This document shows positions 10,649 to 30,349 of a stretch of DNA of 64,000 nt, piece after piece (within the stretch, counting starts at the first letter, position 1; the number at the start of each line of letters is the position of its first letter). The notes below the pieces were generated by a model that worked only from the letters and a program-made list of their open reading frames with translations, had not been told where the DNA came from and made no database searches. This DNA comes from Fibrisoma limi BUZ 3. Its GTDB lineage: Bacteria; Bacteroidota; Bacteroidia; Cytophagales; Spirosomataceae. The stretch lies in the NCBI RefSeq assembly GCF_000296815.2, contig NZ_CAIT01000010.1, forward strand, positions 62,001 to 126,000. Direction: 5' to 3'. The position numbers and the translations under genes were made by a program.

Positions 10649-12013
10649 CTACAAGCCATATTGATCAACCAGATAAACGATGGCCGCCATGGAGGCCGCC
10701 CCCAGGTCCAGTTCCCGTTTATTGACGGCTTCAAAACGGTCGATGCCCGTATGGTGGTAATCGAAGTACCGCTGCGAATCGGGCTTGAAGCCAAACAGAA
10801 CCGTACCTGACTGGGCGAGCGGACCAATATCAGCTCCGCCACCCCCAGGGCCAATCTCATGGAGGCCATACGGAGCCAGCAAGCTTTTCCATTGCGACAC
10901 TTTGGCCTTCTGCTCGGACGTTCCGACCACTCCAAAACCGCGGGGAGTGAAGCCGCCGTTGTCTGATTCAACAGCCGCTATGTGTTTCTCGCTGTTCTTT
11001 TTTGCGTAGTCGGCATAGCCAATACCACCCCGCAGTCCGTTTTCTTCGTTCATGAACATTACCGCCCGGATCGTCCGCTTAGGTTTAATACCGAGGGCTT
11101 TCATCATCCGCAATACCTCGATAGACTGAACGCAGCCAGCTCCGTCGTCGTGGGCACCTTCTGCCAAATCCCACGAATCAAGATGCCCGCCGACTACGAT
11201 GATTTCGTCCGGCTTCTCGGAGCCTTTAATTTCACCCACTACGTTGTAAGACTTAGCATCGGGGAGGCTCTGGCAATTTTGTTTAAAATAGAACGTAAGA
11301 TTCGGGTCTTCGCTGAGCAGCCGGCTCAGTTCATTAGCGCCGTTGGTACTGATGGCAGCCGTCGGAATAAGCGGCACACCAGCGCCGTAGCGCATGCTGC
11401 CCGTATGCGGATTATCGTCCTGGGCCGTCGTCATTGAGCGAATGATAGCGCCTACAGCACCAAATTTTGCTGCAAACGTAGCGCCATTGGCTCGCTGATC
11501 GACCGCTCCACCGTAGGCCTCGAAGGTGTTTAGCTTCGTAGGGTCCATGGGTCGATTGAAGAACACAATTTTACCTTTGATCTTATCGGCTCCCAGTGCC
11601 TCCAGCTCTTTGACGTTTTTTACCTCAACTACGCCAGCTTCGATGCCCTTGGGAGGAGTGGCTACCGAACCGCCCAAGGCAGCGATCGGTACGGTTAGTT
11701 TCCGCTTCCCCGTCCGAATGTAGGCTTCTTCTTTTGGGCCGCGCTCCCAGTGTGGTACCATTACTTCCTGCAGAAACACCCGGTCGAACCCTTCTTTTTC
11801 CATGGTCTGTTTAGCCCACTCGACCGCTTTCTGGGCTCCCGGTGAACCGCTGAGTCGTGGACCGACCTGTTTCGTAAGCTGCCGGAGCCATTCGTAGGAT
11901 TTGCCGTTAGTAAGCGTTTCATTGAACAGACTGCGGATAGCAACCGAGTCGGGCGATTGAGCCAGTAAGGTGGTGGATAATACGGCTAGACTAAACGAAA
12001 GCGTAATCTTCAT
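10649..12013 (-). CDS. Secreted M28-family aminopeptidase/carboxypeptidase
   Basis: Zinc metallopeptidase of 454 residues with signal peptide MKITLSFSLAVLSTTLLAQ. A PA-type insertion lies around residues 120-240. Metal ligands fit M28: His277 in GGHLDSW, Asp289 in AHDDGAG, Glu323/Glu324 in NEENG, Asp351 in ESDNGG and His420 in FDYHHT. The architecture (N-terminal segment, PA domain, peptidase domain) resembles human plasma glutamate carboxypeptidase-like enzymes. It probably works in the periplasm in peptide scavenging. Together with the P1 and M48 proteins it forms a run of three extracytoplasmic peptidases. Confidence 0.92.
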   Translation of the reverse strand: MKITLSFSLAVLSTTLLAQSPDSVAIRSLFNETLTNGKSYEWLRQLTKQVGPRLSGSPGAQKAVEWAKQTMEKEGFDRVFLQEVMVPHWERGPKEEAYIRTGKRKLTVPIAALGGSVATPPKGIEAGVVEVKNVKELEALGADKIKGKIVFFNRPMDPTKLNTFEAYGGAVDQRANGATFAAKFGAVGAIIRSMTTAQDDNPHTGSMRYGAGVPLIPTAAISTNGANELSRLLSEDPNLTFYFKQNCQSLPDAKSYNVVGEIKGSEKPDEIIVVGGHLDSWDLAEGAHDDGAGCVQSIEVLRMMKALGIKPKRTIRAVMFMNEENGLRGGIGYADYAKKNSEKHIAAVESDNGGFTPRGFGVVGTSEQKAKVSQWKSLLAPYGLHEIGPGGGGADIGPLAQSGTVLFGFKPDSQRYFDYHHTGIDRFEAVNKRELDLGAASMAAIVYLVDQYGL

Positions 12014-28295: not shown

Positions 28296-29783
28296 TTATA
28301 CCGTTGCCTCCAGTGATGCGGGTGGCATTTGTTCTTCCTGCTGTTGGCGCACCTGCTGGCCAATTGGAACGTATTCAACTTCGCAGGGGAATCCAAACAG
28401 GCAGTTGTCTTTAATCTGCTTCACCACGCTGTCGGGCACCATCTGCTCCCAGCCTTCTTCACCACGCTGAATCATATCCAGCACCTGATCGGTCGAAATG
28501 TGGAGGTTTTCTTCGATGTAATCCCGAATGTCTTCAATCTTGTCGTTCCGAACCAGGTACTGAAACAGCGGCTCCAGCGTGGGCGGCAGTGCAAATTCCT
28601 GGCAGGTATAAACCTTTTCGTCGCGGAGCGTGGGGTAAACGAACAGCTTTACCTTTCGGCTGAACAGCGTTGCAAACGACTCCAGAATACCCCCCGGCAG
28701 AAATTCATAATGTCCTTCGTCGAAGATGTATTCCAGGTTGGGAATACCCAGCACAAGCCCGATTTTAAGCCGGGTCAGTCGAGCCAGATAAGCAACCAGA
28801 CGGTAGTACTCGTGGTAGTTGGAGATCATCACGGTCTGGCCCATTGAGCACAGAATATCGACCCGGTCCAGGAAATCCTTCTCATCAATCCCTTGTTCGT
28901 TGGCTTTCAGGTTGTGCAGGGTCAGCTCCGACACCATCACCACCCGCTTTTCATCCACATCGTCCTCGGCTTTAAATTGCTTCAGGCCGTTGTTGATCAT
29001 ATCCATATGGACGTTCGTGACCGGACGCAGGCGTCCGCGCATCATCAGGATGTGCTTTTTGTAAAGTGCTTCCGATGGTTGCAGCACCCGCCCATCAGGT
29101 CCGAAGAGTGCAGCGTCCGTAAACCCATTTTTGACCAGGTGCAAACTCATCAGGCGGTTGTCGACACCGGCAAAATCGGGGCCATCAAGCCGGATCATGT
29201 CAATCTGGATGCGCTCCGGCGATAGATCATCCATCAACGACAATACCAGCGTTTCGGGGGATTTAGCGTAGTAGAAACAGCCATAAATTAGGTTAACGCC
29301 AATGACGCCAAGGGCTTGTTGCTGCAAAATATTCTCGTTATCCAGCATCCGAACGTGGATAATCACGTCGTTGTAGCCGGCCTGCGGGGTTAGCTGAAAC
29401 CGGCAGCCGATCCAACCGTGGCCTTCGTTGGTTTTTTGGTAATTCAGGGCCACAACCGTATTGGCAAAGGCGAAGAACGTAGTGTCAACTCCGCGTTTCT
29501 CGGCCAGTCGCTTTTCGAGCAGGTTGTATTCTTTATTAAGCATTTTGATCAGCCGTGATTCGACCACGTAGCGACCACTATCCTCTACACCGTAAATCGC
29601 ATCGCTGAACGTCATGTCATAGGCTGACATAGTTTTGGCAATAGTACCCGACGAGCCACCGGCTTTAAAGAACATCGCGGCTGTTTCCTGACCGGCACCA
29701 ATCTCCGCAAACGAACCATAAATCCGCCGGTCGAGGTTAATTCGCAATGCTTTTTGTTTCGTGCCTATATTTTTTTCGTACAT
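28296..29783 (-). CDS. Conserved uncharacterised protein of about 495 residues
   Basis: A soluble protein with no signal peptide or membrane segment. Highly ordered blocks such as LRINLDRRIYGSFAEIGAGQ, SGTIAKTMSAYDMTFSDAIYG, GHGWIGCRF and MLDNENILQQQALGVIGVNL look strongly constrained and suggest an enzyme. I recall this protein as widespread in Bacteroidetes and some other phyla under automatic names (nucleotide adenylyltransferase, TonB receptor) that do not fit the sequence, so I give none. The HxGH and ISSTxxR motifs of NMN adenylyltransferases are absent. The C-terminal 30 residues are Q/E-rich and variable-looking. It is monocistronic and divergent from the gamma-glutamylcyclotransferase gene. 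Confidence 0.8.
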   Translation of the reverse strand: MYEKNIGTKQKALRINLDRRIYGSFAEIGAGQETAAMFFKAGGSSGTIAKTMSAYDMTFSDAIYGVEDSGRYVVESRLIKMLNKEYNLLEKRLAEKRGVDTTFFAFANTVVALNYQKTNEGHGWIGCRFQLTPQAGYNDVIIHVRMLDNENILQQQALGVIGVNLIYGCFYYAKSPETLVLSLMDDLSPERIQIDMIRLDGPDFAGVDNRLMSLHLVKNGFTDAALFGPDGRVLQPSEALYKKHILMMRGRLRPVTNVHMDMINNGLKQFKAEDDVDEKRVVMVSELTLHNLKANEQGIDEKDFLDRVDILCSMGQTVMISNYHEYYRLVAYLARLTRLKIGLVLGIPNLEYIFDEGHYEFLPGGILESFATLFSRKVKLFVYPTLRDEKVYTCQEFALPPTLEPLFQYLVRNDKIEDIRDYIEENLHISTDQVLDMIQRGEEGWEQMVPDSVVKQIKDNCLFGFPCEVEYVPIGQQVRQQQEEQMPPASLEATV

Positions 29784-29833
29784 CGTATCTGCTGCTTGCT
29801 ACACTAAATTTACAACACAAACTTACAAAACCC

Positions 29834-30349
29834 ATGCCCGCTACCTCTTCAACCTCTGTTATGGATTTGTTGTTTGTGTACGGTACCCTCAGGCAAGGAG
29901 CCCGTAACGAGGCTGCCGCGTACCTCCATCAACGCAGTAGGCACGTTGGTATTGGCTTCCTGCCGGGCAAACTATACTATGTCGACTGGTATCCCGGCGC
30001 GGTGTATCAGCCGACAGGAGCAACCGTTACGGGCCAATACCGGTCAGACGTACCGTCAGACATAACCAATCTCGTCGGGTCTGACGGTACGTCTGACCAA
30101 CACAGCCCCCTCATCGATCAGGCTCCCTTTATCACCGGCGACGTTTTTCGTCTGCACCATCCTGCCGAAATGCTGACTTTTCTCGACGATTATGAAGATG
30201 TAACCGCCGATGGTAAGGGAATCTACGTTCGGGAGTTGTTGCCTGTTATGCTGCTTGGACAACCAACAACGGCCTGGGTTTATTTATACAACCGGCCGGT
30301 GACGCAATTAGTGCTCATCGAATCCGGAGATTTCGCGGCTTATCTTTGA
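29834..30349 (+). CDS. Gamma-glutamylcyclotransferase-like protein with an in-frame palindromic insert
   Basis: Protein of 171 residues with the GGCT/AIG2 fold: VYGTLR (15-20) binds the gamma-glutamyl group, LYYVDWYPGAV follows, and Glu121 in FLDDYEDV is the likely catalytic acid. Members release 5-oxoproline or cleave gamma-glutamylamines. Residues 70-88 (RSDVPSDITNLVGSDGTSD) are encoded by a 57-bp palindrome at 30042-30098 and would extend a surface loop between two core strands. The family normally passes directly to the next strand here (FITGDVFRL). The start at 29834 fits, and ATG 29861 is a possible shorter start. Confidence 0.85.
   Translation: MPATSSTSVMDLLFVYGTLRQGARNEAAAYLHQRSRHVGIGFLPGKLYYVDWYPGAVYQPTGATVTGQYRSDVPSDITNLVGSDGTSDQHSPLIDQAPFITGDVFRLHHPAEMLTFLDDYEDVTADGKGIYVRELLPVMLLGQPTTAWVYLYNRPVTQLVLIESGDFAAYL
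30042..30098. repeat. In-frame palindromic element inside the gamma-glutamylcyclotransferase gene
   Basis: Two perfect 20-bp arms (30042-30061 and 30079-30098) enclose a 17-base centre; total length 57 bases, a multiple of three. Each arm itself contains the heptamer GTCAGAC twice. No second copy was found by eye in the window. The host frame stays open through it, as with Rickettsia palindromic elements. It may also act as an RNA hairpin in the message. Confidence 0.7.

Follow-up and report, generated by a model that had tools for sequence, protein, structure and literature searches.

A palindrome inside a gamma-glutamylcyclotransferase gene of Fibrisoma limi, very probably two inverted units of a dispersed 21-bp REP-like element

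Introduction

The Rickettsia palindromic elements (RPEs) and the Wolbachia WPEs are, like the sequences described here, dispersed palindromes found both between genes and in frame within conserved genes. Orthologous host genes can share the insertion site, and the encoded stretches have been modelled as solvent-exposed (PMC2229807, PMC3767692). RPEs of Rickettsia measure 84-150 bp (PMC2229807, PMC3767692), whereas the unit in Fibrisoma has 21 bp, a comparison made by description only. RPE-4 and RPE-6 are CGTC-tagged (PMC3733652); the Fibrisoma family carries neither a GTAG nor a CGTC tag and is thus separate from the Rickettsia elements.

REP, BIME and REPIN sequences are hairpins of 20-40 bp that occur as single units, inverted pairs and clusters (PMC3733652), as do the Fibrisoma units. 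GTAG REPs, with intragenic copies in several species (PMC3733652), are tagged and RAYT-associated, whereas the Fibrisoma units show no GTAG in their flanks and no copy-flanked transposase gene. The five phyla for which CGTC REPs are reported include the Bacteroidetes; these repeats have no known dedicated transposase and occur in genes (PMC3733652), their stems almost always begin with AT, their loops have 4-5 bases and most of their ends fit CCA (PMC3733652). By contrast, the Fibrisoma unit starts its stem with GGTC and has a three-base loop, which sets it outside the CGTC REPs. The absence of a terminal motif likens it, by description only, to the untagged REP-like families of M. tuberculosis, D. 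radiodurans, Bordetella, Brucella and Cyanobacteria, which have no conserved one (PMC3733652).

The first-pass annotation of this locus knew of no such element in the phylum. This was too strong, since CGTC-tagged REPs are reported in Bacteroidetes, in passages that name no coding copies there (PMC3733652). Coding REPs are already known elsewhere, and the Fibrisoma family fits neither known tag.

Results

The palindrome and its host gene

The window, that is, the whole stretch of 64,000 nucleotides of Fibrisoma limi DNA that was analysed, holds the following features.

29834..30349, + strand: gamma-glutamylcyclotransferase-like gene (GGACT, PF06094), 171 aa, host of the insert
30026..30127, + strand: whole extra stretch, about residues 65-98, with the palindrome as its core; missing from homologues in seven other genera
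30042..30062, + strand: REP-like unit 1, GGTCAGACGTACCGTCAGACA, reading RSDVPSD; its last base departs from the consensus C
30063..30077, + strand: spacer between the units, 3 bp shorter in F. montanum
30078..30098, - strand: REP-like unit 2, inverted, exact consensus, with the + strand reading GSDGTSD

The host protein was matched by Pfam GGACT PF06094 at 69.7 bits (cut-off 22.8). Translation from the ATG at 29834 yields 171 aa, and an alternative ATG at 29747 yields 200 aa. Re-reading of the window bore out the claimed 57-bp perfect palindrome and the open frame through it: positions 30042-30098, coding for residues 70-89 of the 171, form an exact palindrome whose 20-bp arms, GGTCAGACGTACCGTCAGAC at 30042-30061 and GTCTGACGGTACGTCTGACC at 30079-30098, enclose a 17-base centre. 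The motif GTCAGAC was said to stand twice in each arm, and it does so when the motif or its complement is counted. With up to three mismatches allowed, the arm occurred at no second place in the window, nor did any of 100 shuffles contain it.

Each arm is part of a 21-bp unit, GGTCAGACGTACCGTCAGACC, and the palindrome consists of two such units in inverted orientation. The unit is itself a small imperfect hairpin, GGTC-A-GACG-TAC-CGTC-A-GACC, with an A.A mismatch and a loop of three bases; its folding energy is -8.6 kcal/mol for the single unit and -13.7 for the T-A pair form. As RNA, the two units together form a single 20-bp stem at -43.4 kcal/mol (77 bases) versus a shuffled mean of -18.1 (z = -8.9).

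The F. montanum orthologue (L063) shows 79% identity and carries the pair at the same site, in frame. Both arms are identical (20/20 and 20/20), compared with 7/17 for the centre (30062-30078) and 370/456 for the coding flanks; at flank identity, 40 identical arm bases out of 40 would have a chance of 0.81^40, about 2e-4. Seventeen genomes outside the genus matched the host protein, seven on both sides of the insert and the other ten on one side only. All seven have at most four codons where Fibrisoma has 33-38 residues; stops within the match occur in two of them (G018 and G029, one match each). The expectation that close relatives would lack the loop was therefore wrong for the closest one, F. 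montanum, and right for the other genera (7/7 matched on both sides). Since F. montanum shares the insert and the other genera are without it, the insert predates the split of the two species, and it is probably younger than the split of the genera. The window palindrome is thus a copy of long standing, passed on by descent, of a REP/BIME-like family. The proposed surface loop agrees with the gaps in the homologues, from which its placement is drawn because the structure model (alignment of two sequences, mean pLDDT 35) was unusable.

Immediately before the gene, 78 of the 80 bases at 29754-29833 agree with F. montanum, more than in the gene itself (about 81%). These bases include the start of a divergent 495-aa gene.

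Copies across the genome and in the congener

The dispersed copies looked for at the first pass were found both in the window genome (G000, 7.63 Mb) and in its congener (G001, very probably Fibrisoma montanum HYT19); the genus belongs to the Spirosomataceae, Bacteroidota. The 19-base core with up to three mismatches occurs at 99 places in G000, versus 2 for the pattern read backwards, and with up to two mismatches at no fewer than 91 places in G001. Units with up to four mismatches numbered 97 in 48 clusters in G000 (43 stretches around core places) and at least 89 in at least 37 clusters in G001 (30 stretches). One 19-mer place, G000:C6:1812387 (L100), yielded no 21-mer unit. Three clusters with four-mismatch units only (in L110, L127 and L130) were left out, which reduced the 48 to 45 clear clusters. 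A looser unit pattern with three mismatches gave 109 matches on each strand, versus 28 and 24 for the control; because of this high background, only its exact matches were used.

With up to three mismatches, 90 units in the G000 stretches share a common palindromic consensus that folds as a hairpin, as REP-like units do. At this threshold, 15 clusters hold one unit, 20 hold two, seven hold three, two hold four, one holds six and three hold none. Neighbouring units are inverted in 40 of 45 pairs in G000 and in 32 of 49 in G001 (among the matches listed). Inverted neighbours differ less from each other than shuffled pairs do, with mean mismatches of 1.22 versus 1.52 in G000 (P = 0.0002) and 0.72 versus 1.23 in G001 (0 of 5000 shuffles), a likeness that could stem from subfamilies.

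Among the six bases on each side of the 90 units, only the preceding C stands out (71/90), and no GTAG-like tetranucleotide was found at the unit end. The end pair of the unit is G-C in 79 cases, C-G in six and other in five in G000 (n = 90); the respective numbers in G001 are 73, 10 and two (n = 85, among the matches listed). The exchange between G-C and C-G is compensated, a double change with few intermediates, though it may mark a subfamily.

Tandem arrays of a 15-bp repeat, CGGTCWGRCGTGACY (five codons), adjoin several clusters, with which they have the half-unit CGGTCAGACG in common. They were located at the following positions.

L104:3378-3449 and 11092-11155; G000:C5:334055, C6:337082 and C6:624809: 15-bp tandem repeats

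At some N-termini these are read as SDRVT-like repeats, and the pattern is also present in G003, G005 and G016.

Copies inside genes

By hand count, 13 of the 45 clear clusters lie in frame within open genes and 32 are intergenic. The genes concerned, named by Pfam where a family matched, are listed here.

window cyclotransferase gene
RnpA (Ribonuclease_P), four units
GH13 protein
GlpD
conserved protein without Pfam match
ThiF/rhodanese (MoeB-like) protein
second conserved protein without Pfam match, cluster near the N-terminus
SpoU methylase, cluster near the N-terminus
MutS-domain protein
Peptidase_S15 protein
hydantoinase/oxoprolinase
AraC-type regulator
NFACT (RqcH-like) protein

The two cases near the N-terminus are L093 and L104; the first of these genes, with TTG as its start codon, may be shorter. 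The likeness to Rickettsia palindromic elements drawn at the first pass is strengthened by the 12 further genes with in-frame units and by homologue gaps in two of the 13 genes. In F. montanum, the sequence on either side of the cluster could be matched for 12 of the 13 in-gene cases, and 11 of these 12 have a unit there.

The 22 in-gene units use four readings, or close variants of them: SDGTSD (10), GLTVRLT (5), GQTYRQT (4) and SDVPSD (3). Five of the six frames of the unit are open; the fifth open frame, VRRTVR, is unused and the sixth has stops. Under equal use of the five, the chance that one given open frame goes unused is 0.7 per cent, by our own arithmetic.

The RnpA gene (L091:3161-3730, G000:C5 at about 532 kb) has four units in G000 and three recognisable ones in F. 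montanum, whose insert is similar. RnpA matches were obtained in 37 of 39 genomes. In the DNA of G005, query residues 1-54 run straight into 113-189, with none of the approximately 58 residues between them present, and in G017 only 18 bases lie between query residues 57 and 112. The match to solved RnpA relatives is broken likewise, between 38 and 118. These breaks indicate that Fibrisoma RnpA is longer by about 48-58 residues, of which units encode about half.

Copies between genes

By hand count, the 32 intergenic clusters comprise 21 flanked by co-directional genes and 11 flanked by convergent genes, and no cluster is flanked by divergent ones. Control gaps of at least 60 bp without units, from the same stretches, comprised 74 co-directional, 13 convergent and 25 divergent cases. 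The deficit in divergent gaps (0/32 clusters versus 25/112 controls, P = 3e-4) compares clusters called by hand with controls from an automatic gene call. REPs are likewise reported mostly between co-directional or convergent genes (PMC3733652). The mainly non-coding placement (32/45) is REP-like, and the coding share is above the 'seldom' that a five-point REP definition allows for coding copies (PMC12306157).

Five overlaps with ORF starts (L105, L106, L118, the first cluster of L128, and L129) were counted as intergenic because the F. montanum gene, or the family match, begins downstream. Also counted as intergenic were L103 and L114, which touch a gene 3' end, and L097 and L115, which overlap short ORFs of 53 and 70 aa. 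The pseudaminic acid cytidylyltransferase gene PseF (L095:3315-4280, 296.5 bits) is flanked by a unit pair on each side, and F. montanum has units at both places.

Conservation of the copies

For 39 of the 45 clear clusters, the two flanks have aligned counterparts in F. montanum, and a unit (up to four mismatches) is present there in 32 of the 39. The seven sites without it are L090 (first), L102, L104 (second), L106, L114, L121 and L125; the six clusters outside this count are L089, L099, L109, L124 (second), L126 and L128 (second). Among eleven specially aligned sites, six have an F. montanum unit, with one to four mismatches, and five have none, a sample that leans to loss because its sites were picked for having no counterpart in the first F. 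montanum stretches. The sites without an F. montanum unit show that not every copy has been kept, and the number of units varies within orthologous clusters.

The claim of a mobile palindrome agrees with the dispersed copies. The 11 sites aligned with the congener, which are biased towards loss, included neither a clean empty site nor a target duplication, so that insertion is a matter of inference. Most testable sites are old, and we infer mobility.

In seven in-gene orthologue pairs, unchanged residues keep the same codon in 67 of 77 cases within units versus 1640 of 2443 outside (P = 7e-5), a comparison biased by the units having been found by similarity in both species. L104 shows no such excess, with 7/12 kept in units versus 285/468 outside.

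Distribution outside Fibrisoma

With one mismatch allowed, the unit pattern matched nine of 150 family genomes and was absent from 141. The matching genomes have 75 places in G000, 79 in G001, 27 in G033, which belongs to another genus, and one to five in each of six others. The variant amplified in G033 is particular to it, mostly GGTCCGACGTTCCGTCTGACC, which has a C.T mismatch (for example C55:22-42 and C93:17383-17403); some copies form inverted pairs and three lie near contig ends. In an even draw of 395 phylum genomes with no mismatch allowed, G000 was the sole match.

Among public genomes, the exact 19-mer was found in F. montanum and, outside it, at six loci, of which five are in Bacteroidota and one in Streptomyces; about two chance matches are expected by estimate. 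The five Bacteroidota loci belong to Emticicia, Cytophagales, Cytophagaceae and, for two of them, a single Chitinophagales record; four of the five have the full 21-mer. A literature search found no paper with the 19-mer or its complements, and the Fibrisoma papers, by title, include none on such repeats.

A RAYT-like gene

A RAYT-like gene (L143:1420-2112, G000:C6 at about 748 kb) encodes 230 aa with an NHIH motif in the translation and scores 79.8 bits with NF047646 (cut-off 80) and 23.3 bits with Y1_Tnp (cut-off 23). It is syntenic in both species, with DNA 88% identical. No unit with up to four mismatches was found in the 12-kb stretch around it in either species and, the gene not being flanked by copies, the element's way of moving is unproved. 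A second, shorter Y1_Tnp match on C7 reached 22.7 bits. A RAYT-based REPtron was considered and rejected, as no RAYT gene flanked by units was found in either species.

Discussion

We consider it very probable that the window palindrome represents two inverted units of an untagged REP-like element of 21 bp that is dispersed in the genome and, like BIMEs and REPINs, occurs as single units, inverted pairs and clusters. Insertion into the cyclotransferase gene would have taken place in the ancestor of both Fibrisoma species. The insert may have been tolerated because 21 bp make seven codons, five of the six frames are open and the peptides would fit an inter-strand loop, those from the four frames in use being SDGTSD, SDVPSD, GLTVRLT and GQTYRQT. 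Since then, arms or copies would have corrected one another, the hairpin would have been under selection, or both, so that the palindrome was maintained. Spread in trans, perhaps by a single-strand transposase of the Y1/RAYT type, is the least certain step, possible but rather doubtful.

Alternatively, the units could be sites bound by a protein that organises the chromosome or otherwise recognises a specific DNA sequence, and be retained for their usefulness rather than through mobility: a palindromic 21-mer suits a protein dimer, and units are conserved while spacers vary, with 32 of 39 testable sites shared. However, the number of units changes in orthologous clusters, seven of the 39 sites are without a unit in the congener, and nearly all other genera searched are without it, which leaves this reading improbable. 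The first-pass annotation had also considered an RNA hairpin control. The RNA would indeed form a 20-bp stem with arms invariant between the two Fibrisoma species, but a regulatory hairpin particular to the cyclotransferase gene is very unlikely because the 21-bp unit also sits in 12 unrelated genes and 32 intergenic clusters; moreover, no Rfam family was above threshold at this place (best overlap 23.8 bits, gathering score 80).

Two further explanations concern the origin of the sequence itself. Arrays of CGGTCWGRCGTGACY beside several clusters, with their shared half-unit, would be expected if the units were a by-product of these tandem repeats, yet the window has no tandem array and the array pattern occurs at 15 places in G000 versus 97 units; we give this origin hardly any credence. 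Template switching within the cyclotransferase gene can yield perfect palindromes, and the arms do match each other; such a local formation is refuted by the 21-mer copies at many other places, and practically nothing is left of its probability.

Rickettsia and Wolbachia provide the best-known cases of palindromic inserts kept in frame; in Fibrisoma, a genus of Bacteroidota, 13 genes of one genome have such inserts. The congener reveals which sites, arms and spacers have been kept, so that the question of whether such inserts are tolerated, corrected or selected becomes directly testable, and this in a genome that, at 7.6 Mb, exceeds those of Rickettsia by far. A broader proposal, which we hold to be speculative and on balance unlikely, is that a coding-capable, untagged palindrome family of Bacteroidota has repeatedly lengthened proteins, RnpA by four units, and has been kept palindromic by hairpin-templated correction or selection while the genes diverge, without a dedicated flanking transposase. 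The RNase P protein of Fibrisoma is shown to have about 50 extra residues, about half of them from four units.
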